Shown one piece after another: positions 22,960 through 41,488 of a stretch of DNA of 64,000 bases. Position 1 is the stretch's first letter. Each line of letters opens with the position of its first letter. Made by a program: the position numbers and the translations under genes. Source of the DNA: Catellatospora citrea. GTDB taxonomy: Bacteria; Actinomycetota; Actinomycetes; Mycobacteriales; Micromonosporaceae. The stretch covers positions 1,240,001 through 1,304,000 of the forward strand of contig NZ_RAPR01000001.1 of the NCBI RefSeq assembly GCF_003610235.1. Direction: 5' to 3'. The notes under the pieces are model-generated. The model was given only the letters and a program-made list of their open reading frames with translations. It ran no database searches and had not been told where the DNA came from.

Positions 22960-25704
22960 ATGTGGTCACCGTCCCTCAGCCGCCGTCGCCTGTTGCAGGC
23001 CGCCGGCGTCGCCACCGCGGCCACGGCCGCACCCGTCCTCGCCGCCACCGAAGCCGCCGCGGCGGCGATCCCCCCGGCCCGCGCCGACGTCGGGGTGTCG
23101 GCGTACGCCTTCGACCTCTCGGAGGTGCGCCTCACCACCGGCCGCTGGCTGGACAACCAGAACCGCACCCTGAGTTACCTGCGTGACGTCAACGTCGACC
23201 GGCTGCTCTACGTGTTCCGAGCCAACCACCGCCTGTCCACCAACGGGGTCGCGGCCACCGGCGGCTGGGAGGCTCCCACGTTCCCGTTCCGCAGCCACAG
23301 CCAGGGCCACTTCCTCACCGCGTGGGCGCAGGCCTGGGCCGTGCTCGGCGACACCACGTGCCGCGACAAGGCCAACCAGATGGTCGCCGCCCTGGCCGCC
23401 TGCCAGGCCAACAACGCCACCGCCGGGTTCACCGCCGGCTACCTGTCCGGCTTCCCCGAGTCCGACTTCACCGCCCTGGAAGCCCGCACGCTGAGCAACG
23501 GCAACGTGCCCTACTACGCCCTGCACAAGACCCTGGCCGGGCTGCTGGACGCGTGGCGGCTGATCGGCAGCACCCAGGCCCGCGACGTGCTGCTGAGCCT
23601 GGCCGGCTGGGTCGACTGGCGCACCGGCCGGCTCAGCAGCGCACAGATGCAGGCCATGCTGGGCACCGAGTTCGGCGGCATGAACGCCGTGCTGACCGAC
23701 CTCTACCAGCAGACCGGCGACACCCGCTGGCTGACCGCCGCACAGCGCTTCGACCACGCCACGGTCTTCAACCCTCTGGCTTCGAACCAGGACCAGCTCA
23801 GCGGCCTGCACGCCAACACCCAGGTGCCCAAGTGGATCGGCGCGGCCCGGGAGTTCAAGGCGACCGGCACCACCCGCTACCGCGACATCGCGGGCAACGC
23901 GTGGAACATCTGCGTCAACGCGCACAGCTACGTGATCGGCGGCAACAGCCAGGCCGAGCACTTCCGCGCCCCGAATGCCATCGCCGCGTACCTCAACACC
24001 GACACGGCCGAGGCCTGCAACACGTACAACATGCTCAAACTGACCCGCGAGCTGTGGCTGCTCAACCCCGACAACGCCGCGTACTTCGACTTCTACGAGC
24101 GCGCGCTGCTCAACCACCTCATCGGCCAGCAGAACCCGGCGGACAGCCACGGGCATTTCACGTACTTCACCCCGCTCAACCCCGGCGGTCGCCGCGGCGT
24201 CGGCCCGGCCTGGGGCGGGGGCACCTGGAGCACCGACTACACCACCTTCTGGTGCTGCCAGGGGACCGGCATCGAGACCAACACGAAGCTGGCCGACTCG
24301 ATCTACTTCTACAACGGCACCACGCTCACCGTGAACCTGTACACGCCGTCGGTGCTGACCTGGACCTCCCGCGGGATCACGGTCACCCAGGCCACCACGT
24401 ACCCGGTCAGTGACACCACCACCCTCACGGTGACCGGCAGTGCCGGCGGATCGTGGTCGATGCGGCTGCGCATCCCCTCCTGGACCACCGGGGCCACCGT
24501 CAGCGTCAACGGAACCGTCCAGAGCATCACCACGACGCCGGGCACGTACGCCACCCTGACCCGGTCCTGGACCTCGGGCGACGTGGTGACCGTCAAGCTG
24601 CCCATGCGGGTGGTCATGAAGGCGGCCAACGACAACGCCAACGTCTCCGCGGTCACCTACGGCCCGGTCGTGCTCGCCGGCAACTACGGCAACACGTCGC
24701 TGTCCGCGCTGCCCAGCCTCACTCCGAGTACGGTGACCCGCAGCAGCACCAGCTCGCTGGCGTTCACCGCCACCGCCAACGGCGCGACGGTCAACCTCGC
24801 CCCCTTCCACGACGCGCACGGCTACAACTACACGGTCTACTGGAACGCCTCCGGGCAGGGCGGCACCACCGCTGGCGCGGTGTTCCGGCTGGCCAACGCG
24901 GCCAGCGGGCTGGTCCTCGGGGTGCAGAACATGTCGACCGCCGACGGCGGGCTCGCCGTGCAGTGGACCGACAACGGCACCGCCGACCACAACTGGGAGC
25001 TGATCGTCGACGGCTCGGCGCTGCGGCTGCGCAACGCCAACAGCGGCAAGGTGCTCGGCGTGGAGAACATGTCCACCGCCGACAACGCCCGGGTGATGCA
25101 GTGGGCCGACAACGGCACCGCCGACCACCGCTGGACGGTCGTCGACAACGGCGACGGCTCCCACAAGCTGCGCAACGTGCACACCGGCAAGCTGCTGGCG
25201 ATCCTCAGCGGCTCCACCGCCAACGGCGCGCAGGCCGTGCAGGACCCCGACAACGGCAGCGCCGACAACCTCTGGCGCTTCGTGCCCGAGGGCGCGCGCC
25301 GCATCCAGAACCTCGCCTCCGGGCTGGTCCTGGGCGTGCAGAACATGTCGACCGCGGACGGCGGCCTGGTCCTGCAGTGGGGCGACACCGGCACCGCCGA
25401 CCACCTCTGGACCGCCGTCGTCGACACCGGCGGCTACCTGCGGCTGCGCAACGGCAACAGCGCCAAGGTGCTCGGCGTCGAGAACATGTCCACCGCGACC
25501 GGAGCCCGGATCATGCAGTGGGCCGACAACGGCACCGCCGACCACCGCTGGCGCCTGCGCCACGCGTCCAACGGCAGCTTCCGCATCCAGTGCGCCAACG
25601 GCGGCAAGGTCCTCGCCGTCAGCGGCGCCTCCACCGCCCAGGGCGCCCAGATCGTGACCGCCGACGACTCCACCGCCACCGACCGCCTCTGGCGCTTCGT
25701 CTGA
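22960..25704 (+). CDS. Secreted GH127 beta-L-arabinofuranosidase with two beta-trefoil lectin domains
   Basis: A 914-residue exported enzyme. The N-terminus SRRRLLQAAGVATAA is a Tat-type signal. Residues 45-640 are the GH127 (DUF1680) alpha/alpha-barrel plus beta domains: FPFRSHSQGHFLTAW, NVPYYALHKTLAGLLDAW, FGGMNAVLTDLY, EACNTYNMLKLTREL and FWCCQGTGIE; the last holds the paired cysteines that in the family bind zinc and serve as nucleophile. Residues 650-914 are two ricin-like beta-trefoils with repeats ending DNGTADH.W. It would release L-arabinofuranose from beta-arabinosides such as hydroxyproline-linked glycans. Ribosome site AAGGAG at 22949-22954. Confidence 0.9.
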   Translation: MWSPSLSRRRLLQAAGVATAATAAPVLAATEAAAAAIPPARADVGVSAYAFDLSEVRLTTGRWLDNQNRTLSYLRDVNVDRLLYVFRANHRLSTNGVAATGGWEAPTFPFRSHSQGHFLTAWAQAWAVLGDTTCRDKANQMVAALAACQANNATAGFTAGYLSGFPESDFTALEARTLSNGNVPYYALHKTLAGLLDAWRLIGSTQARDVLLSLAGWVDWRTGRLSSAQMQAMLGTEFGGMNAVLTDLYQQTGDTRWLTAAQRFDHATVFNPLASNQDQLSGLHANTQVPKWIGAAREFKATGTTRYRDIAGNAWNICVNAHSYVIGGNSQAEHFRAPNAIAAYLNTDTAEACNTYNMLKLTRELWLLNPDNAAYFDFYERALLNHLIGQQNPADSHGHFTYFTPLNPGGRRGVGPAWGGGTWSTDYTTFWCCQGTGIETNTKLADSIYFYNGTTLTVNLYTPSVLTWTSRGITVTQATTYPVSDTTTLTVTGSAGGSWSMRLRIPSWTTGATVSVNGTVQSITTTPGTYATLTRSWTSGDVVTVKLPMRVVMKAANDNANVSAVTYGPVVLAGNYGNTSLSALPSLTPSTVTRSSTSSLAFTATANGATVNLAPFHDAHGYNYTVYWNASGQGGTTAGAVFRLANAASGLVLGVQNMSTADGGLAVQWTDNGTADHNWELIVDGSALRLRNANSGKVLGVENMSTADNARVMQWADNGTADHRWTVVDNGDGSHKLRNVHTGKLLAILSGSTANGAQAVQDPDNGSADNLWRFVPEGARRIQNLASGLVLGVQNMSTADGGLVLQWGDTGTADHLWTAVVDTGGYLRLRNGNSAKVLGVENMSTATGARIMQWADNGTADHRWRLRHASNGSFRIQCANGGKVLAVSGASTAQGAQIVTADDSTATDRLWRFV

Positions 25705-28474: not shown

Positions 28475-29464
28475 TTACTTCTTGCGGATGCCGATGAGGC
28501 GTTGGAGCAGGATGAACGCGAACAGCAACCCGCCGATCACGATCTTGGTCCACCACGAGTTGAGGCTGCCGTCGAAGGTGATGAGGGTCCGGATTACGCC
28601 GAGCACGAGCACCCCGAGCACCGTGCCGAACACGTACCCGGAGCCGCCGGTGAGCACCGTGCCGCCGATGACGACCGCGGCGATGACGTCGAGTTCCATG
28701 CCGACCGCGATCAGCGGGGCGCCGGACAGGGTGTAGAACGACAGCAGGATGCCGCCGATCGCCGAGCACAGGCCGCTGATGACGTACACCGCGATCTTCG
28801 TCTGGCCCACGGGCAGGCCCATGAGCAGCGCCGACTGCTGGTTGCCGCCGAGGGCGTAGACGTTGCGGCCCAGCCGGGTGTACGCGAGCACGAACGCGCC
28901 GACGAGCACGACCGCGAACGCGACCAGCACGCTGATCGACACAAAGTTGCCGCTCGGGTTGCCGATGCGTTCCTGGGCCATGCTGGTCCAGAACGGATCG
29001 GTGATCGGGATCGACGACTTGCTGATGAACGTGCACATGCCGCGGGCGAAGAACATGCCGGCCAGCGTCACGATGAACGGCTGGATCTCGAAGAAGTGGA
29101 TCACGCAGCCCATCAGGAAGCCCAGCGTCGGGCCGACGAGCAGCGCGATCACCAGCACCGCAGCGGGCGGCATGCCGCCCTGCAGCAGCGATGCCGACAT
29201 CATCGCGGTCATCGCCACGACCGAGCCCACGGACAGGTCGATGCCGCCGGTGAGGATGACGAAGGTCATGCCGACCGCGACGACGAGCAGGAATCCGTTG
29301 TCGATGAAGACGTTGAACACGACCTGCACGTTGGAGAAGGCGCGGTACTGCGAGACGCCTACGCCGTACATGACCAGCAGCAGGGTGAGCGTGGCCAGCA
29401 CCGGCACGTACCGCTGCGGGATGCGCCACCAGTCGCGGGTGGGGGTGAGTGGGGTCGTGGTCAT
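28475..29464 (-). CDS. yjfF: ABC sugar permease, YjfF type
   Basis: A 329-residue permease of the RbsC/YjfF family with about 9-10 membrane helices. [14 protein letters not shown] is the family signature, and [17 protein letters not shown] is the cytoplasmic loop that contacts the ATPase. With YtfT it forms the heterodimeric channel of a galactofuranose/arabinofuranose-type importer. Its ATG overlaps the ytfT stop (ATGA, 29461-29464). Confidence 0.92.
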
Positions 29465-30531
29465 GCCGGCACCTGCTCCTTGCTCTGGTCGACCGCCGTC
29501 GGCGCGACGGGCGCGGCGGGTCGCCGGCGCGCGAACTTGGCCCGGAACGCGGGGGCCTGGACGAGGCAGACGATGATCACGACCACTGCCTTGAACAGCA
29601 GCGAGGTCTGCGGCGAGATGTTCATCGCGTACACGGTGGTGGTCAGGGTCTGGATGAGCAGCGCGCCGAGGATGGTGCCGCTGAGCGAGAACCGCCCGCC
29701 GGCCAGCGACGTGCCGCCGATCACGACGGCGAGGATCGCGTCGAGCTCGATCCACAGGCCGGCCGCGTTGCCGTCGGCGCTGGACACGTTCGCCGTGATC
29801 ATGAATCCGGCGATGCCGGCGCACACCGCGCTGATGACGTACACCAGGAAGGTGATGCGGGCCGAGCGGATGCCGGCCAGGCGGCTGGCCTCGGCGTTGC
29901 CGCCCACCGACTCGATGATCATGCCGAGCGCGGTGCGCCGGGTGACCGCGGCGACCAGCAGGGCCACCCCGGCCGCGATGAAGATGGCCAGCGGCAGGGT
30001 GAGCAGGTAACCGACCCCGACCGACTTGTACGGCTCGGAGTTGATGGTGATGATCTGGCCCTCGGTGATCAGCTGGGCGAGGCCGCGGCCGGCCACCATC
30101 AGGATCAGCGTGGCGATGATCGGCTGGATGCCGATGATCGAGACCAGCGCCCCGTTCCACATGCCGAGCACCAGCGACAGCCCGATGCCCAGGGCCAGCG
30201 CCACCAGCACGCCGCCCAGGGCGTTCTGATCCGGCTGCTGGCTGATGTGCAGGCAGGCGATCGCGCCGCTGATCGCGCACATCGAGCCGACCGACAGGTC
30301 GATGCCGCCGGTGGCGATGACCAGCGTCATGCCGAGCCCGACCAGGATCAGCGGGGCGGCCAGCCGCAGGATGTCGACGAGGCTGCCGTAGAGGTGGCCG
30401 TCCTTCATCTCGACCGTCAGGAACCCGGGCCGGTAGATCGTGTTGGCGACCAGCAGCGCCACCAGCGCGACGACGGGCCAGAACAGCGAGTGGCCGGAGA
30501 CGGCGGCCCACCGTGCCTTGGCGGTGCTCAT
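29461..30531 (-). CDS. ytfT: ABC sugar permease, YtfT type
   Basis: A 356-residue permease. [19 protein letters not shown] and [19 protein letters not shown] are the same two family loops seen in YjfF, and [19 protein letters not shown] lies between. C-terminal basic tail. The start codon at 30531 overlaps the stop of a 24-codon micro-ORF (ATGA), which supplies its Shine-Dalgarno (GAGGAG). Otherwise an ordinary partner of YjfF. Confidence 0.92.
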
Positions 30532-30602
30532 GCCTTCTCCTCGCTTCGCTCGTCGACGACATGTGGCATGAGCCTGCTGATTCGCTCGCTGCGCTCACTC
30601 AT
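30528..30602 (-). CDS. Micro-ORF cassette, copy 2 (24 codons)
   Basis: An ORF of 24 residues starting MSERSERI and ending DERSEEKA, with SRLMPHVV between. It starts inside the ATGA of copy 1's stop and ends in the ATGA that starts ytfT. Its last codons (GCGAGGAGAAGGC) form a Shine-Dalgarno 5-8 bases before the ytfT start. It differs from copy 1 at 6 of 75 bases. Product may be irrelevant and translation the point. Too short for family search by eye; no known domain. Confidence 0.7.
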   Translation of the reverse strand: MSERSERISRLMPHVVDERSEEKA

Positions 30603-30673
30603 GCCCTCTCCTCGCTTCGCTCGTCAACGGCATGTGGCATGTGGCTGCTGATTCGCTCGCTGCGCTCGCTCAT
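30599..30673 (-). CDS. Micro-ORF cassette, copy 1 (24 codons)
   Basis: An ORF of 24 residues starting MSERSERI and ending DERSEERA, with SSHMPHAV between. Its ATG overlaps the ytfR stop (ATGA at 30670-30673) and its TGA overlaps the ATG of copy 2. Period of the tandem pair is 71 bases. The purine-rich GAGCG/AGCGAG composition is unlike the flanking genes. A related copy lies between araB and araD at 34208. Confidence 0.7.
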   Translation of the reverse strand: MSERSERISSHMPHAVDERSEERA

Positions 30674-32211
30674 GCTCGGGCCCCTTCGTGGTGCGTGCCG
30701 CTGGCGATGGTCTGCATGACGAGGTCGGCGTCCACCGTGTGGTCGTTGGCCAGTTCGGTGACCAGCTGCCGGTCGCGCATGACCGCGATCTTGTGGCTGA
30801 GCCGCAGCACCTCCTCCAGCTCGGCGGAGATGAACAGCACCGCCATGCCGCCGTCGGACAGCTGCACGACCAGCTTCTGGATCTCGGCCTTGGCGCCGAC
30901 GTCGATGCCGCGGGTGGGCTCGTCGAGGATCAGCAGCCGCGGCTCGGTGATCAGCCAGCGGGCCAGCAGGACCTTCTGCTGGTTGCCGCCGGACAGGTTG
31001 CGCACCGGGATCTCGGGATCGGCCGGGCGGATGCTCAGCGCCTTGACGTACTTGTCGACCAGCTCGTCCTGCCGGCGGCGCGGGATGGGCCGCAGCCAGC
31101 CCCGGGCGGCCTGCATGGCCAGGATGATGTTCTCGCGCACGCTCAGCTCGCCGACCAGGCCCTCGGTGCGCCGGTTCTCGGAGCAGAACGCGATGTCGTG
31201 GCCGATCGCGGCGATCGGGCTGCGCAGCGGCGCGGACTTGCCGTCGATGGCGACCTTGCCGTGGTCGGCGCGGTCCGCGCCGAACAGCAGGCGGGCCACC
31301 TCGGTGCGGCCGGAGCCGAGCAGCCCGGCCAGGCCGACGACCTCCCCGGCGTGGATGGTGAGGCTGAACGGCGTCACCGAGCCCTTGCGGCCCAGTTCTT
31401 CTGCCTGCAGGAACGGCGTGCCCGCCTCGATCGCGCGCACGTCCCGCTTGGACTGCTCGTCCAGGCTCTCCAGCACGTCGAGTTCCTTGCCGATCATCTT
31501 CTCGACCAGGGCGAGCTGGGGCAGCTCCGCGATCGGGTACTCCCCCACCAGGCGGCCGTTGCGCAGCACGGTGATCCGGTCGGCGATGCCGTACACCTGG
31601 TCGAGGAAGTGGGTCACGAAGATGATCGCGATGCCCTCGTCGCGCAGCTGGCGCATGATGCGGAACAGCTGCTCCACCTCGGTCGCGTCGAGGCTGGAGG
31701 TGGGCTCGTCGAGGATGAGCACCCGGGCCTGGATGTCGATGGCGCGGGCGATGGCGACCATCTGCTGCACGGCGAGGGAGTACGTGCCCAGCAGCTGCGT
31801 CACGTCGATGTGCAGGTCCAGACGGGCCAGCAGGTCACGGGCGCGGCGGCGCATCTCGCCCCAGCGGATCGCGCCCAGGGTGCGCGGCTCGCGTCCGATG
31901 AAGATGTTCTCCGCCACCGACAGGTTGGCGCAGAGGTTGACCTCCTGGTAGACGGTGCTCACCCCGGAGGCGGCGGCCTGCATGGGGCCGCTGAACGACA
32001 CCTGCTGCCCGGCCAGCTCGACGGTCCCCGCGTCGTGGGAGTACACGCCGGTCAGCACCTTGATCAGGGTGGACTTGCCGGCGCCGTTCTCGCCCATGAG
32101 GGCGTGCACCTCGCCGGGGAACAGCCGGAAGTCGACGCCGTCGAGCGCGCGCACCCCCGGGAAGGACTTGCTGATGGCGGTCATCGTCAGGACCGGTTGC
32201 CTACCCGACAT
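30670..32211 (-). CDS. ytfR: ABC sugar importer ATPase, YtfR type (two ATP-binding domains)
   Basis: A 513-residue double ATPase. The first half has Walker A GENGAGKST, a divergent signature at LGTYSLAVQQ, and Walker B VLILDEPT; the second half has the degenerate Walker A GLLGSGRTE and signature LSGGNQQK with LLILDEPTRGIDVGAKAEI. This is the standard form for RbsA/YtfR-type importers. It follows ytfQ after a 184-base gap with a hairpin. Start taken at 32211 (MSGRQPVLTM). Confidence 0.93.
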   Translation of the reverse strand: MSGRQPVLTMTAISKSFPGVRALDGVDFRLFPGEVHALMGENGAGKSTLIKVLTGVYSHDAGTVELAGQQVSFSGPMQAAASGVSTVYQEVNLCANLSVAENIFIGREPRTLGAIRWGEMRRRARDLLARLDLHIDVTQLLGTYSLAVQQMVAIARAIDIQARVLILDEPTSSLDATEVEQLFRIMRQLRDEGIAIIFVTHFLDQVYGIADRITVLRNGRLVGEYPIAELPQLALVEKMIGKELDVLESLDEQSKRDVRAIEAGTPFLQAEELGRKGSVTPFSLTIHAGEVVGLAGLLGSGRTEVARLLFGADRADHGKVAIDGKSAPLRSPIAAIGHDIAFCSENRRTEGLVGELSVRENIILAMQAARGWLRPIPRRRQDELVDKYVKALSIRPADPEIPVRNLSGGNQQKVLLARWLITEPRLLILDEPTRGIDVGAKAEIQKLVVQLSDGGMAVLFISAELEEVLRLSHKIAVMRDRQLVTELANDHTVDADLVMQTIASGTHHEGARA

Positions 32212-32356
32212 CCCATCCGACCTTTCGCTGAGTACGTGGGTAAGGGGTCGCCGCGGCCGCCCGGCAGCGGACCCGGATCGGCACGGCGGCGAGGACGTCG
32301 GCCGGTCGCGGTGTGCCCCGCGGATCCGGCTCCGTCTGCGGTGAGTGAGGCGAGGA

Positions 32357-32387
32357 CGGGGCCGCCGCACGGCGTGCGGCGGCCCCG
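32357..32387 (-). terminator. Intra-operon hairpin between ytfQ and ytfR
   Basis: A perfect 14-base inverted repeat, CGGGGCCGCCGCAC (32357-32370) and its complement (32374-32387), 3-base loop, 8 bases after the ytfQ stop. Position inside the operon suggests partial termination or 3'-end protection that leaves more ytfQ mRNA than ytfR mRNA. Confidence 0.7.
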
Positions 32388-32395
32388 GGGTGCGA

Positions 32396-33397
32396 TCAGT
32401 ACTTGCGGGTCGGCAGCGCGGCCTTGGCCTGCTCCGGCGTGAAGGTGGTCTCCTGGGTCTCGATGCGCTGGGGGATGGTCTCCCCGGCCTTGACCTTCTT
32501 GACCAGGTCCATCAGCTGGGGCCCGAGCAGCGGGCTGCACTCCGCGATGAAGTTGAACTTGCCGTCGGCCAGGGCCTGCATGCCGTCCTTGACCGCGTCG
32601 ATCGTGATGATCTTGATGTCCTTGCCCGGCACCTTGCCCGCGGCGGTGATCGCCTCGAGCGCGCCCAGACCCATGTCGTCGTTGTGCGCGAACAGCACGT
32701 CGATCTTCGGGTTGGCCTTCAGGAACTGCTCCATGACGGCCTTGCCGCCGGCGCGGGTGAACTCACCGGTCTGCGACGCGATGATCTTCAGGTTCGGGTT
32801 CGCCTTGATGGCCTCGCCGAAGCCCTTCTTGCGGTCGTTGGCGGGCGCGGAACCCGTGGTGCCCTGCAGCTCCACGATGTTCACCGGGCCGGTGGCCGTC
32901 TTGGTCTCGTTGACCAGCCACTCACCGGAGAGCTTGCCCTCCTTGACGAAGTCCGAGCCGATGAACGTCTTGTACAGCGACTTGTCCGCCGAGTCCACCG
33001 AGCGGTCGGTCAGGATCACCGGGATGCCGGCGTCCTTGGCCTCCTTGAGCACGGTGTCCCAACCCGACTCCACCACCGGCGAGAAGGCGATGACGTCGAC
33101 CTTCTGCTGGATGTAGTTGCGGATCGCGGTGATCTGGTTCTCCTGCTTGCCCTGCGCGTCGTCGAACTTCAGCTCGATGTTGGCCTCCTTGGCGGATTCC
33201 TTGATCGAGTTGGTGTTCGCCGTGCGCCAGCCGCTCTCGGCGCCGACCTGCGAGAAGCCGAGCGTCAGCTTGCCGTCGTCGGCCGGCTGCTCGCCGGTGT
33301 CGCTGTTGCCGCACGCGGCCATACCGGTCGCGAGCAGAGTTGCGGTCAACACCGCGACGGCGCGGCGTCGCGTGATGGCCTTGCCCATGGTGAGCAT
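32396..33397 (-). CDS. ytfQ: Sugar-binding lipoprotein, YtfQ type
   Basis: A 333-residue substrate-binding lipoprotein. The N-terminus has a basic region and a lipobox-like GMAAC at about residue 29. The mature chain aligns along its length with E. coli YtfQ (LTLGFSQVGAESGWR, PVVESGWDTVLKEAKDAGIP, FAHNDDMGLGA, IITIDAVKDGMQA), the galactofuranose receptor; Shewanella AraU-type relatives bind arabinose. Given araA, araB and araD in the same operon, arabinose, probably as the furanose, is the likely ligand. AAGGAG precedes ATG 33397 by 6 bases. Confidence 0.93.
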   Translation of the reverse strand: MLTMGKAITRRRAVAVLTATLLATGMAACGNSDTGEQPADDGKLTLGFSQVGAESGWRTANTNSIKESAKEANIELKFDDAQGKQENQITAIRNYIQQKVDVIAFSPVVESGWDTVLKEAKDAGIPVILTDRSVDSADKSLYKTFIGSDFVKEGKLSGEWLVNETKTATGPVNIVELQGTTGSAPANDRKKGFGEAIKANPNLKIIASQTGEFTRAGGKAVMEQFLKANPKIDVLFAHNDDMGLGALEAITAAGKVPGKDIKIITIDAVKDGMQALADGKFNFIAECSPLLGPQLMDLVKKVKAGETIPQRIETQETTFTPEQAKAALPTRKY

Positions 33398-33545
33398 GCG
33401 ATCTCCTTGGATGAGGATGGGCCTACCCCCGCACGCCGTGTGGGAGCCCGGCGTGCGGCCTGCGCTGTGGTGCTGGTGGAGCGGTGATGATGCGGTGAGA
33501 GGTTCGGGGTGGTGCCACCGCCGGGTGCCGAAGCCCGGCGGACAT

Positions 33546-34211
33546 CTAGCGGCCGGCCTGGCCGTAAACGTTCTGGTAGCGGTCGTAGAGGGAGTCCACG
33601 TCGGCCTGCGCCATCGGCAGCGGCTGCCCGAGCGCCCTGGCCAGGTGCGCGGTGCGGGCGACGTCCTCGCACATCACCGCGGCCTTGACCGCGGCCCGGG
33701 CGTCCTTGCCGATGGTGAACACGCCGTGGTTGCGCATCAGCACCGCCGGCGAGCGGTGCCCGGACAGGGTGGCCACGATGCCCTTGCCGATGTCGTCGCC
33801 GCCGATCAGCGCGAAGGGCCCGACCGGGATCTCCCCGCCGAACTCGTCGGCCTGCGCCGTCAGGTGGCACGGGATGGCCTCGCCCCGCGCCGCCCACGCC
33901 GTGGCGTACGTGCTGTGCGTGTGCACGACCCCGCCCACCTCGGGCATGGCCCGGTAGACGTAGGCGTGCGCGGCGGTGTCGCTCGACGGCGACAGGTCGC
34001 CCTCGACGACCACGCCGTCCAGATCGCAGACGATCATGTTTTCGGGGGCGAGGTCGTCGTAGGACACCCCGCTGGGCTTGATGACCAGCAGCTCCTGGCC
34101 CGGCACCCGGGCCGACACGTTGCCTGCGGTCCAGGCCACCAGCCCGTATCGCGTCAGCTCCCCGTGCAGCGACGCCACGGTCTGCCGCAGCGCGGCAACA
34201 ACCTCGCTCAT
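33546..34211 (-). CDS. araD: L-ribulose-5-phosphate 4-epimerase
   Basis: A 221-residue class II aldolase-fold epimerase converting L-ribulose 5-phosphate to D-xylulose 5-phosphate. Zinc ligands are HTHST (two His) and the His in MRNHGVFTIG; GNVSARV, IKPSGVSYDDL and SSDTAAHAYVYR bind the phosphate and substrate. The ATG at 34211 overlaps the stop of a micro-ORF. Followed by a 148-base gap to ytfQ. Confidence 0.95.
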   Translation of the reverse strand: MSEVVAALRQTVASLHGELTRYGLVAWTAGNVSARVPGQELLVIKPSGVSYDDLAPENMIVCDLDGVVVEGDLSPSSDTAAHAYVYRAMPEVGGVVHTHSTYATAWAARGEAIPCHLTAQADEFGGEIPVGPFALIGGDDIGKGIVATLSGHRSPAVLMRNHGVFTIGKDARAAVKAAVMCEDVARTAHLARALGQPLPMAQADVDSLYDRYQNVYGQAGR

Positions 34212-34282
34212 GCCCGCTCCTCGCTGCGCTCGTCGCGGGCACGAGTGGTCGGCCCCATGATTCGCTCGCGTTGCTCGCTCAT
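34208..34282 (-). CDS. Micro-ORF cassette, copy 3 (24 codons), between araB and araD
   Basis: An ORF of exactly 24 residues starting MSEQRERI and ending DERSEERA, with MGPTTRAR in the centre. Its ATG overlaps the araB stop (ATGA, 34279-34282) and its TGA overlaps the araD start (ATGA, 34208-34211). The end GCGAGGAGCGGGC acts as Shine-Dalgarno for araD. Same length, ends and junctions as the pair at 30528-30673, with a different centre. Confidence 0.7.
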   Translation of the reverse strand: MSEQRERIMGPTTRARDERSEERA

Positions 34283-35946
34283 GCCGCCACCCCCAGCGCC
34301 ACCGTCGGTTCGTCGGCCGAGCCCAGCTGGGCGGCGTTGCGGATGGCGCGCAGGCGCGACATCACGTCGTTCGCGCCGCGTCCGAAGTGGTCGTGCAGGG
34401 TGCGGTACTCGGCGTAGAGCGCGTCGTAGGCGCGGGCCCGGTCCGGGTCGGGCTGGTAGACGCCCCGCTGGACGCGCCCCATCGCCTCCGACGCCTCGTG
34501 CACGTCGGTGTAGGCCCCGGCGGCGACCGCGGCGTGGATCGCCGAGCCGAGCGCCGGGCCCTGCGCTGAGCCGATGATGCTCAGCGGCCGGTCGGTCACG
34601 TCGGCGTAGATCTGCATCAGCAGCCGGTTCGTGGTCAGGCCACCCGCCACGACCAGCTCGGTGACCGGCACGCCCGCCGCCGCGAACGCCTCGATGATCA
34701 TGCGGGTGCCGTACGCGGTCGACTCCAGCAGTGCCCGGTAGACGTCGGCCGGCCGGGTGGCCAGGGTCAGCCCGACGATCAGGCCGGACAGGTCGTGGTT
34801 GACCAGCAGCGAGCGGTTGCCGTTCCACCAGTCCAGCGCGATCAGGCCGTGGCCGCCGACCGGCTGCGCGGCGGCCAGCTCCGACAGCCGCTCGTGCGAA
34901 TCGAAGCCCGCCGGTGCGGCGTGGTCGACATACCAGCCGAAGATGTCGCCGACGCCGCTCTGCCCGGCCTCGTATCCCCAGGCGCCCGGGCTGATGCCGC
35001 CATCGACGACGCCGCACATGCCGGCCACCTCGGCCGGAACCGTGCCGTTGACGACGTGGCAGGTCGAGGTGCCCATGATGGCGACCAGCCGGCCCGGGTC
35101 GAGGGCCTGCGCGGCGGCGGCGGTGACGTGCGCGTCGACGTTGCCGACCGCGACCGCGATGCCCTCAGGCAGCCCCGTCCACGCGGCGGCCTCGGCGGTC
35201 AGCGAGCCCGCCCGGCCGCCCAGCGGCAGCAGCGGGCCGTCCAACTTGGCCACGAAGCCCGCGAAGCCGGGGTTCAGCGCGGCCAGGTAGTCCTTCGACG
35301 GGTAGCTGCCGTCCTGGAAGATGCCCTTGTAGCCGGCGGTGCAGACGTTGCGGGTCTCGACCCCGCACAGCTGCCAGATGATCCAGTCGGCGGCTTCGAT
35401 CCAGCGCTCGGCCCGGTCGTAGACCTCCGGGTCCTCCTCCAGCAGCTGCAGCCCCTTGGCGTACTGCCACTCCGCGGAGATCTTGCCGCCGTAGCGGCCG
35501 ATCCACGGCTCGCCGCGCTCGTGGGCCAGGGCGTTGATGCGGTCGGCGTGCGGCTGCGCGGCGTGGTGCTTCCACAGCTTCACCCACGCGTGCGGGCGGT
35601 GGCGCAGCTCCGGCAGCTCGCACAGCGGCGTGCCGTCGGCCAGCGCCGGCAGCACCGTGCACGCGGTGAAGTCGGTGCCGATGCCGATCACGTCGGCCGG
35701 GTCGACGCCCGCCGCGGCCAGCGCCGCCGGGACCGCGTAACGCAGCACGTCGCGGTAGTCGTCGGGGTCCTGCAGCGCCCAGTCCGGCGGCAGCGGCGTG
35801 CCGGAGGCGGCGAGCACGCCGTCCATGACGCCGTGGCGGTACTCGTGCACCGCCGTGCCGACCTCGGCGCCGTCGCTGACACGGACCACCAGGGCCCGGC
35901 CGGACAGCGTGCCGTAGTCGACGCCGACGACGTACCGGTCGCTCAT
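34279..35946 (-). CDS. araB: L-ribulokinase
   Basis: A 555-residue FGGY kinase phosphorylating L-ribulose. The N-terminus VVGVDYGTLSGRALVV is the ATP phosphate-binding motif; WIEAADWIIWQLCG, GTSTCHVVNG (AraB-type) and ELVVAGGLTTNRLLMQIY are diagnostic of AraB over other FGGY kinases. First gene of the arabinose operon, with GAGGAAG before ATG 35946. The order araB-araD-ABC-araA differs from the classical araBAD. Confidence 0.96.
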   Translation of the reverse strand: MSDRYVVGVDYGTLSGRALVVRVSDGAEVGTAVHEYRHGVMDGVLAASGTPLPPDWALQDPDDYRDVLRYAVPAALAAAGVDPADVIGIGTDFTACTVLPALADGTPLCELPELRHRPHAWVKLWKHHAAQPHADRINALAHERGEPWIGRYGGKISAEWQYAKGLQLLEEDPEVYDRAERWIEAADWIIWQLCGVETRNVCTAGYKGIFQDGSYPSKDYLAALNPGFAGFVAKLDGPLLPLGGRAGSLTAEAAAWTGLPEGIAVAVGNVDAHVTAAAAQALDPGRLVAIMGTSTCHVVNGTVPAEVAGMCGVVDGGISPGAWGYEAGQSGVGDIFGWYVDHAAPAGFDSHERLSELAAAQPVGGHGLIALDWWNGNRSLLVNHDLSGLIVGLTLATRPADVYRALLESTAYGTRMIIEAFAAAGVPVTELVVAGGLTTNRLLMQIYADVTDRPLSIIGSAQGPALGSAIHAAVAAGAYTDVHEASEAMGRVQRGVYQPDPDRARAYDALYAEYRTLHDHFGRGANDVMSRLRAIRNAAQLGSADEPTVALGVAA

Positions 35947-38830: not shown

Positions 38831-41488
38831 ATGCACCCAGCACGTCATCGACGCCGCCTGCGGACCGCCGTCCTCCACGGCGCCCTCGGCATCCTCACCG
38901 TCCTCGGCGGCCTCACCGCCGCCGCCGCTCCGGCCACGGCCGCCCCCGCCCAGCCGTCCCCGCTGACCACCCCGTGGACCGGCCAGGCGCTCAACGGCAC
39001 CCCGCTGCCGGAGTATCCGCGCCCGCAGATGACCCGCCCCGACTGGCTGAACCTCAACGGCGAGTGGCAGCTGGGCCAGTCCACGACCAACGGCGCGCCC
39101 GTGTTCGGCCAGACCCTGCCCGAGCGCGTCAACGTCCCGTTCCCGGTCGAGTCGGCGCTTTCGGGCATCAAGCGCGCCGCCAACGACAACCGCTACTACC
39201 TGACCTACCGCCGCACCTTCACCATCCCGGCCGGCTGGGCCGGCCGCCGCGTGCAGCTGCACTTCGGCGCGGTCGACTGGCGCACCACGGTATGGGTCAA
39301 CGGCGTGCAGGTCGGCACCCACACCGGCGGTTACGACCGGTTCGAGTTCGACGTCACGGCGCAGCTCAACGGGGGCACCAACGAGCTGGTCGTGCGGGTC
39401 TTCGACCCGACCGACTCCGGCGCCGAGAGCAGCAACCCGGCCCGTGGCAAGCAGGTCCGCAACCCCGGCGGCATCTTCTACATCCCGACCTCGGGCATCT
39501 GGCAGACGGTCTGGATGGAGCCGACGCCCACCTCGTCCATCTACAGCGCCGACCTCTACGCCAACCTGGCCGACAACACCCTGCGGATCCGGGTGTTCAC
39601 CCGCGGCGACGTCACCGGGCACTCGGTGTACGCCGAGGCGCTCAACGGCAGCACCGTGGTCGGCACCGCCACCGGCGGCTTCACCGAGTTCACCGTGCCG
39701 GTGCCCAGCGCCCGCCGCTGGTCGCCCGACGACCCGTTCCTCTACAACCTGCGGCTGTCGCTGCGCAACAGCGCCGGCACGACGGTCGACCAGACCATGC
39801 ACTACTTCGGCATGCGCGAGGTCGGCAAGGCCGTGCTCAACGGCAAGCTGATGCCGACCCTCAACGGCCAGTTCGTCATGCACAACGGCACCCTCGACCA
39901 GGGCTTCTGGCCCGACGGCCTGTACACCGCGCCGACCGACGCGGCCCTGGCCGGCGACCTGCAGAAGATCAAGGACCTCGGCTTCAACATGGTCCGCAAG
40001 CACATCAAGGTCGAGCCGCAGCGCTGGTTCTACCACGCCGACCGCCTCGGCCTGCTGGTCTGGCAGGACATGCCGAGCAAGGGCGACCCCGGCACCGCGG
40101 CGCAGCAGGCGCAGTGGGAGACCGAGCTGCGCGAGGTCGTCGACGAGCACCGCTCCTCCCCCGCCGTCGTGGTGTACGTGCCGTTCAACGAGGGCTGGGG
40201 CGAGTGGAACCTCGCCGACACGTCCCGGATCGCGCAGAACGTCAAGAACCAGGACCCGACCCGGCTGGTCAACCCGCACAGCGGCTACAACTGCTGCGCG
40301 TCCAAGGGCGACCCCGGCAACGGCGACATCATGGACTGGCACATGTACGTCGGCCCCGACTCGCCCACCCCGACGTCGACCCGCGTGGCGATGCTCGGCG
40401 AGTACGGCGGCATGGGCCTGCGCTCGCCAGGCCACGAGTACAGCCCCAACGGCAGCTTCGGGGCGTACGAGATGCACACCAGCACCCAGTCCATCACCGA
40501 CCGGTTCGTGGGCCTGATCAACTCGTCCACCAACCTGATGTACACCCGGGGCCTGTCCGGCCTGGTCTACACGCAGCCGTTCGACGTCGAGGGCGAGGTC
40601 AACGGCTTCTGGACGTACGACCGGCAGGTGCTCAAGTTCGACGCGGCCCGGGTGCGGGCCGCCAACCAGGGCATCATCGCCGCGTCCAAGGCGCTCAACA
40701 CCAGCCCGCCGCCCGGCCAGCGCATCATCGGCCCCGGCGGCAAGTGTGTCGACGTCGCGGCCGACGACACCGGCGGCAACGGCGCGGCCGTCCAGCTGTG
40801 GGACTGCCAGGCGGCCTCCGGCGACCAACGCTGGACCTGGGACGGCAGCTCCCTGCGCACCCTGGGTCGCTGCATGGACGCCACCGGCAACGGCACCACC
40901 AACGGCACCCTGATCCAGCTGTGGGACTGCAACGGCGGCGGCGCGCAGCAGTGGGTGCAGCAGGCCAACGGCTCGCTGCGCAACCCGCAGTCCGGCCGCT
41001 GCCTCGACTCGCCCAGCGGCTCCACCGCCAACGGGGCGCGGCTGCAGCTGTACGACTGCAACAGCAGCGTGGCGCAGGTGTTCCGGGTCGGCGGCGGGTC
41101 CACCGCAGCCAGCAACATCATCGGCCCCGGCGGCAAGTGCGTCGACGTCGCCGCCGACGACACCGGCGGCAACGGGGCGGCCGTGCAGCTGTGGGACTGC
41201 CAGTCCTTCGCCGTGGACCAGAAGTGGGCCTGGGACACCACCACCCTGCGCACCCTGGGCCGCTGCATGGACGCCACCGGCAACGGCACCGCCAACGGCA
41301 CCCTCATCCAGCTGTGGGACTGCAACGGCGGCGGCGCGCAGCAGTGGATACCGCAGGCCAACGGCTCGCTGCGCAACCCGCAGTCCGGCCGCTGCCTCGA
41401 CTCGCCCAACGGCTCCACCGCCAACGGCGCGCGACTGCGGCTGTGGGACTGCAACGGCAGCCCCGCCCAGCAGTTCCTGAAGCAGTAG
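38831..41488 (+). CDS. Secreted GH2 glycosidase with two tandem ricin-type lectin domains
   Basis: An 885-residue secreted enzyme. Signal peptide at residues 1-38. Residues 60-210 are the GH2 sugar-binding jelly roll, 215-310 the Ig-like domain, and 315-620 the TIM barrel with acid/base glutamate in PFNEGWGEWN and nucleophile in MLGEYGGMG. Beta-galactosidase, glucuronidase or arabinosidase activity cannot be told apart. The C-terminal 250 residues are two ricin B lectin domains (CBM13) of about 120 residues that are nearly identical to one another, also at DNA level. GGGAG precedes ATG 38831. Extracellular and probably polysaccharide-bound. Confidence 0.88.
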   Translation: MHPARHRRRLRTAVLHGALGILTVLGGLTAAAAPATAAPAQPSPLTTPWTGQALNGTPLPEYPRPQMTRPDWLNLNGEWQLGQSTTNGAPVFGQTLPERVNVPFPVESALSGIKRAANDNRYYLTYRRTFTIPAGWAGRRVQLHFGAVDWRTTVWVNGVQVGTHTGGYDRFEFDVTAQLNGGTNELVVRVFDPTDSGAESSNPARGKQVRNPGGIFYIPTSGIWQTVWMEPTPTSSIYSADLYANLADNTLRIRVFTRGDVTGHSVYAEALNGSTVVGTATGGFTEFTVPVPSARRWSPDDPFLYNLRLSLRNSAGTTVDQTMHYFGMREVGKAVLNGKLMPTLNGQFVMHNGTLDQGFWPDGLYTAPTDAALAGDLQKIKDLGFNMVRKHIKVEPQRWFYHADRLGLLVWQDMPSKGDPGTAAQQAQWETELREVVDEHRSSPAVVVYVPFNEGWGEWNLADTSRIAQNVKNQDPTRLVNPHSGYNCCASKGDPGNGDIMDWHMYVGPDSPTPTSTRVAMLGEYGGMGLRSPGHEYSPNGSFGAYEMHTSTQSITDRFVGLINSSTNLMYTRGLSGLVYTQPFDVEGEVNGFWTYDRQVLKFDAARVRAANQGIIAASKALNTSPPPGQRIIGPGGKCVDVAADDTGGNGAAVQLWDCQAASGDQRWTWDGSSLRTLGRCMDATGNGTTNGTLIQLWDCNGGGAQQWVQQANGSLRNPQSGRCLDSPSGSTANGARLQLYDCNSSVAQVFRVGGGSTAASNIIGPGGKCVDVAADDTGGNGAAVQLWDCQSFAVDQKWAWDTTTLRTLGRCMDATGNGTANGTLIQLWDCNGGGAQQWIPQANGSLRNPQSGRCLDSPNGSTANGARLRLWDCNGSPAQQFLKQ
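40729..41485 (+). repeat. Tandem duplication of lectin-domain coding sequence
   Basis: The stretch starting at about 40729 (ATCATCGGCCCCGGCGGCAA) and the one at about 41118 encode the two CBM13 domains and differ at only scattered third positions plus a few replacements. This indicates a recent internal duplication or gene conversion. Confidence 0.75.

Follow-up and report, generated by a model that had tools for sequence, protein, structure and literature searches.

Three micro-ORFs at gene junctions in the window

The window analyzed here is a stretch of 64,000 nucleotides from Catellatospora citrea. It carries three copies of a short unit, each holding a micro-open reading frame (micro-ORF) between two genes. 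A sequence-only reading of the window had reported these as three minus-strand ORFs of 24 codons, with ATGA at both ends and GAGGAG preceding the next start, and we confirmed each of these features. Two units form a tandem pair (period 71, 2.1 copies according to Tandem Repeats Finder) within a set of ATP-binding cassette (ABC) transporter genes, and the third separates an araB-like from an araD-like gene. The units and their neighbors are as follows.

29461..30531, minus strand: ABC transporter permease (PF02653), downstream of the tandem pair
30528..30602, minus strand: unit 2 of the tandem pair, whose stop codon overlaps the permease start
30599..30673, minus strand: unit 1 of the tandem pair, MSERSERISSHMPHAVDERSEERA, between the ABC ATPase and permease genes
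30670..32370, minus strand: sugar ABC transporter ATPase (PF00005), upstream of the tandem pair
33546..34211, minus strand: class II aldolase, araD-like (PF00596), downstream of the araB-araD unit
34208..34282, minus strand: unit at the araB-araD (kinase-aldolase) junction, MSEQRERIMGPTTRARDERSEERA
34279..35946, minus strand: FGGY carbohydrate kinase, araB-like (PF02782 and PF00370), upstream of the araB-araD unit

The window units belong to a dispersed family

We searched the C. citrea genome (9,327,955 bases in 4 contigs) with patterns for the two ends of the unit. The head pattern, with at most two mismatches, matched at 51 places and the tail pattern, with at most three, at 102; the same patterns read backward matched nowhere. 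The three window units are members of a dispersed family and not chance resemblances, which makes the observation stronger than first put. Tail copies (at most two mismatches) numbered 1, 2, 7, 8, 16, 24, 64, 87, 93, 112, and 114 in 11 congeneric genomes. At the same threshold, a sample of the bacterial family gave a match in 58 of its 150 genomes, with 17 of 42 genera represented. Among 298 genomes sampled from the order (at most one mismatch), 47 matched, 5 of them from outside the window's family with one match each.

Five genomes from other genera (G130, G142, G035, G046, and G056; loci L304-L333) contain subfamilies with tails like GCCGAGCGNAGCGAGGTGGCGGCATGA. Their tandem periods are 74, 77, and 80, all 2 mod 3, and one pair in G056 is spaced 76. 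Genomes of genus g4 (for example, L304 and L305) have one headless tail-like site each, near-identical in both copies read; similar matches recur across many g4 genomes, perhaps as an old fixed copy. Elsewhere in the window, long tandem repeats with periods of 417 and 393 lie in coding-like sequence at 24906-25700 and 40716-41461.

Relatives have empty sites at orthologous junctions

The sequence-only reading had proposed a portable element that expands an RTGA junction (ATGA or GTGA) without breaking either gene, a proposal to be judged by comparing orthologous junctions with and without the unit. Filled and empty sites uphold it: both states were found at each of the window's two junctions, and likewise at 13 of 17 others. 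The araB-araD unit is present in G122 and, with a 15-base deletion, in G111. The remaining 8 of 10 congeners lack it, and the empty G094 site is an uninterrupted GGTGGCGGCATGAGCGA. Alignment across the empty site is seamless for G083, G094, and G103; the five others have left flanks of different length. The ABC junction holds two units in C. citrea, one in G103, and none in 8 of the 10 congeners, while G111 has an in-frame 26-base remnant such as a deletion between two cores would leave. Tandem number thus varies between congeners at one junction (two, one, or no units) as it does within the C. citrea genome, where 7 of 65 arrays are double and 2 are triple.

We probed 24 further junctions, of which 17 were aligned. 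Because these were hand-picked among the listed matches and near-contiguous ones were favored, the 13 of 17 for which one or more relatives have an empty RTGA site are not a random sample. The empty site is GTGA at four of them (L030, L039, L096, and L097), with a few flank bases changed at L039; L052 and L077 were uninformative and L018 was ambiguous. A fixed duplication of the target was considered and rejected, as L030 and L039 have ATGA at both ends where their relatives have GTGA. The unit at L015 (C1:6446231-6449254 of the C. citrea genome, at 1501-1568) follows a terminator-like palindrome and has no ATGA on its right; it is common to C. citrea and G083 and is missing in G094 and G122.

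The open frame appears to be kept, and the peptide does not

A head scoring at least 14 of 20 accompanies 76 of the 102 tails, and the other 26 were excluded from unit counts. From head to tail, 32 of the 76 units measure 71 bases, 25 measure 68, and 5 measure 74, with other lengths in 14; 62 fall between 68 and 74 bases. Length is 2 mod 3 in 69 units, and the ORF from the head to the tail stop is intact in 66. A separate rule that took in relatives and other genera gave 91 of 93 distinct units of 50 to 85 bases at 2 mod 3. The earlier claim that the center is fixed at eight residues did not survive: lengths of 68, 71, 74, 77, and 80 were seen, nearly always differing in 3-base steps.

Such regularity could be meaningless if the units were an ordinary DNA repeat descended from two master copies, one of 68 bases and one of 71, that passed on their frame; these two lengths do make up 57 of the 76 units. 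However, 12 of the 19 remaining units are still 2 mod 3 (p = 0.007), other genera have 74, 77, and 80, and decay in place stays in frame, as in the 15-base deletion and the 26-base remnant of G111. Stop codons are also depleted, as detailed below. We regard this explanation as very unlikely.

We counted changes from the consensus in 58 units of 68, 71, or 74 bases with the better heads. The heads contained 48 synonymous, 148 nonsynonymous, and 2 stop changes (expected, 39.4, 148.3, and 10.3), and the tails contained 99, 213, and 0 (expected, 84.7, 224.0, and 3.3). For both parts together, stops were depleted (2 versus 13.6 expected; p = 1.3e-4), and amino acid changes, occurring at about the expected rate, were hardly depleted. 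This is a sign that the unit keeps an open frame and not a peptide sequence. A function for the peptide receives no support from the substitution pattern, and the conserved last residues are not evidence of one because they overlap the ribosome site and a hairpin arm. The earlier suggestion that the peptide is a by-product therefore looks right: the frame is guarded, and amino acids change about as expected.

Units mark start codons

We assigned the reading frames of the flanking genes from GC content by codon position for 65 arrays (56 single, 7 double, and 2 triple, with locus L051 counted twice). The downstream gene starts in frame at the unit end in 57 arrays. An in-frame upstream stop overlaps the head in only 44, and 39 of these also pass the open-frame check. 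The target is therefore better described as an RTGA start codon; the unit marks start codons first and stop/start overlaps second. The rule that units occupy ATGA junctions stood in part, more often for the downstream start than for the upstream stop. A picture in which copies lie mostly off junctions or out of frame, which the earlier reading had named as its own refutation, was looked for and not found. Of 56 cases, 34 have a Shine-Dalgarno-like word ahead of the unit's own start, compared to 4 and 7 of 56 in two upstream controls.

At L045 (C1:3226000-3229000 of the C. citrea genome), the unit lies at 1468-1539 on the matched strand. The gene downstream of it starts with MSERSELT, letters that recur in the unit head as though the two had recombined; G083 has no unit there.

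Each end of the unit is an imperfect hairpin

Copies from other genera revealed that the head is an imperfect palindrome made up of RTGANN, the loop GAGCGNAGCGA, and a complementary arm. The tail is a second palindrome, identified by covarying pairs from -34/-4 to -31/-7 across the family. Each end is thus an imperfect hairpin whose outer arm bears the RTGA end. No inverted repeat links the two ends; GAGCGNAGCGA is present in both in direct orientation. In the window, the palindromes are placed as follows.

34259..34282, minus strand: head palindrome of the araB-araD unit, RTGANN - GAGCNNNGCGA - arm, with pairs 1-23, 5-19, and 6-18 covarying across the family
30650-30673 and 30579-30602, minus strand: head palindromes of the tandem-pair units, in the equivalent place
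34208..34244, minus strand: tail palindrome of the araB-araD unit, whose 3' arm, GGCATGA, includes the start codon of the next gene
30599-30635 and 30528-30564, minus strand: tail palindromes of the tandem-pair units, in the equivalent place

Covariation was assessed with shuffles that ignore relatedness, and the result remained after collapsing to 71 distinct junctions. Among these, head pair 1-23 was Watson-Crick in 61 (expected, 49.4; p = 5e-5), pair 5-19 in 67 (expected, 52.4; p = 5e-5), and pair 6-18 in 63 (expected, 59.9; p = 0.04). Tail pairs -34/-4, -33/-5, -32/-6, and -31/-7 were Watson-Crick in 64, 70, 56, and 62 (expected, 55.7, 64.3, 46.9, and 51.0; p ≤ 1.5e-4). Among 27 pairings slid out of register, only -31/-6 gave a signal (p = 0.007), the other 26 being null. 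Covariation was not significant for -30/-8 and -29/-9. Pairs 3-21 and 4-20, mostly G-A and A-G, become G-C and A-T in 8 of 93 units. Pair -32/-6 gave p = 0.05 in the 30 junctions outside the C. citrea genome. Permuting whole arms led to the same conclusion, with a mean tail stem of 5.69 versus 5.05 (p = 0.002; 83 junctions). The structure is visible only because subfamilies differ from each other. A larger element with the same ends was sought at ten loci (L006 and L022 overlap; L070 gave no match) and rejected; apparent head-only loci carry variant tails.

The hairpins might be kept for regulation rather than movement. The tail hairpin would then hide the next start in mRNA until ribosomes on the micro-ORF open it, a latch that would make the downstream gene strictly dependent on the upstream one. 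It is in keeping with this that the 3' tail arm contains the start codon and that its pairs covary; some variant tails even form perfect stems over the start (13 pairs in L026 and L074 and 11 in L025). RNA unfolding is also a known model of translational coupling (PMC12548453). We nevertheless consider a latch unlikely, as 30 units gave no energy signal, Watson-Crick pairing at the outer tail positions reaches only 61 of 93 units for -37/-1 and 69 for -36/-2, and units come and go at the same junction between close relatives, which would be odd for a needed switch.

Arm and target bases tend to agree

The left and right ends of 54 arrays agree beyond chance at the first RTGA base and at positions -1, -2, and -4, but not at -3, and the start codons at the two ends agree (p = 6e-5). 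At 16 junctions, read by eye and not blind, the arm base was T for 11 of 12 A targets and C for 3 of 4 G targets (p = 0.027); L023, A in one relative and G in another, was counted as A. At L030, all five relatives have GTGA as the target, and the unit, despite now starting with ATGA, has a GTG-type arm. This small sample suits a guide-like pairing of arm and target.

It is conceivable, though we hold it doubtful, that the unit finds start codons by base pairing. The inner arms, complementary to RTGA and the bases next to it, would allow a single-stranded intermediate to pair with the target and insert, and the mycobacterial interspersed repetitive units (MIRUs) would form one branch of a single actinobacterial class that includes these units. 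Variation in the arm (T or C at base 23; tails TCATGCC, TCACGC, and TCATCG) would select ATGA, GTGA, and CGATGA targets. If so, a mobile element would have the start codon as its address.

A probable mobile element with a proposed translational relay

We think it probable that the units are MIRU-type, presumably non-autonomous mobile elements that insert at RTGA start codons and carry a translational relay that makes insertion nearly harmless. Sequence comparison shows dispersed and tandem copies, presence and absence at orthologous starts, an open frame from RTGA to RTGA, and a covarying hairpin at each end. Insertion would occur in the direction of the gene, often where the stop of the previous gene overlaps the start. 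The gene's old ribosome site would now start the micro-ORF, and the unit's own ribosome site, together with the new overlap, would hand ribosomes to the gene, leaving the insertion nearly silent. In the sequence-only reading, such a relay would reset translation of downstream genes. The hairpins may be recognized by an enzyme acting in trans, perhaps on single-stranded DNA, and the peptide would have no function of its own.

Several results weigh against this interpretation. Ten of the 76 units have no intact ORF, 8 of the 65 arrays do not end at an in-frame start, and the unit at L015, which G083 also has, lies away from RTGA. Because 57 of the 76 units measure 68 or 71 bases, the headline frame count makes the units look more independent than they are. 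The Shine-Dalgarno-like word seen before the next start in 55 of 56 cases gives no independent support because it is built into the tail search pattern. In the 30 junctions outside the C. citrea genome, there is hardly any variation at pairs 1-23, 6-18, -34/-4, -33/-5, and -28/-10 (p = 1.0). The outer tail pairs are Watson-Crick less often, and the RNA folding energy of 30 units equals that of shuffles (mean z, 0.03). For these reasons we make no claim of stem formation in mRNA, and folding energy was set aside as evidence of structure. Finally, Y1 transposases, the one transposase family searched, do not track copy number in the 11 congeners.

This last result also bears on the possibility that the units are IS200/IS605- or REP-like and are moved by a Y1 transposase. 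Elements of the IS200/IS605 group end in single-strand hairpins and insert at a fixed tetranucleotide, and the units likewise have a hairpin at each end and a fixed insertion tetranucleotide. However, only 6 of 11 congeners have Y1 matches, and G094 has none despite 64 copies; the single match in C. citrea contains a stop, and the hairpin and guide positions differ from those of the IS200/IS605 group. We consider this origin very unlikely. The Y1-like genes with an internal stop lie at C3:79497-79859 in C. citrea and at C10:62235-62555 in G111.

Within the literature searched, the family outside mycobacteria, the evidence of insertion, and the sign that the frame and not the peptide is kept are new, as is the covarying hairpin at each end, a feature that MIRUs have in part. 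MIRUs are widely used for typing. In that literature, they are described as mycobacterial, and we found no account of how they move. A large, recently variable family of units in a different family of bacteria, with clean empty sites and two covarying hairpins, offers non-pathogenic hosts for studying how targets are chosen, which enzyme acts, and what happens to translation. The units are also an example of how operons can take up an element exactly where they are most sensitive and remain intact.

Comparison with known small repeats

Like the IS200/IS605 and REP/RAYT systems, the units have palindromic ends, a fixed insertion tetranucleotide, and possible arm-target pairing. Unlike in those systems, there is no matching transposase distribution, and the core of the unit lies between target and arm at the left end. 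The pneumococcal BOX, RUP, and SPRITE repeats are small, dispersed, and probably moved in trans, and large BOX elements can hold ORFs (PMC3049150). The units resemble these repeats and miniature inverted-repeat transposable elements (MITEs) in being small, dispersed, and probably moved in trans. They differ from a MITE in that there are no terminal inverted repeats between the ends, each end being its own palindrome with a shared direct core. Start-codon targeting with a guarded frame is not described for BOX, RUP, or SPRITE in the accessible part of PMC3049150.

The closest likeness is to MIRUs, which measure 40 to 100 bases and occupy 41 places in H37Rv (PMC2734929). They are apparently mobile, insert at start codons, have an internal ORF coupled at -4, and on insertion probably have little effect on the gene (PMC12548453, citing Supply 1997). 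The earlier claim that no such element had been described is not supported, as PMC12548453 describes MIRUs in the same terms. A description of such a unit outside mycobacteria was not found in the literature searched, which left out most subscription papers. The stem-loop link is not wholly new either, since a family catalogued in PMC2267715 contains MIRU repeats. MIRUs of senX3-regX3 are attributed to M. leprae and the tuberculosis complex only (PMC4213456), a statement that may concern that locus alone; among the matches listed, MIRU-type sites occur in many mycobacterial species (L189-L268), a wider range than that remark.

A scan with a MIRU tail gave at least 80 loci, of which 75 mycobacterial ones were used and 5 not labeled as mycobacterial were dropped; loci L269-L303 were left out of the counts. 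Among the matches listed, to which all MIRU numbers here refer, these 75 loci contained 87 sites. RTGA stands on both sides of 63, of which 41 are 2 mod 3 and 40 hold an ORF. A profile of 53 units from the C. citrea genome had 106 matches in 568 kb of mycobacterial loci, 89 of them on MIRU sites, compared to 3 for a reversed control; the best single E value was 0.11, and the pattern used to fetch the loci shares part of the core. The MIRU arms covary as well (GCGCCG/CGGCGC, GCACCG/CGGTGC, GCGCTG/CAGCGC, and GTCCGG/CCGGAC), with a mean stem of 5.40 versus 5.08 (p = 0.002; 85 distinct arm pairs).

The unit works like a MIRU. Both are short, dispersed, and partly tandem, insert at start codons, and have an internal ORF overlapping the downstream start by 4 bases, and both have the core GAGCGCAGCGA and GAGGAG with covarying arms around it. 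Three differences stand beside these likenesses. The host here is not mycobacterial, and in the order sample its genome falls in another family. The units have an extra head module, MSERSERI, with its own palindrome, whereas the common mycobacterial form of 53 bases (33 of 63) has the tail-like module only. The 3' arm includes the start codon in these units and ends just before it in the MIRU copies compared. Homology of the unit to MIRUs is likely rather than proved.

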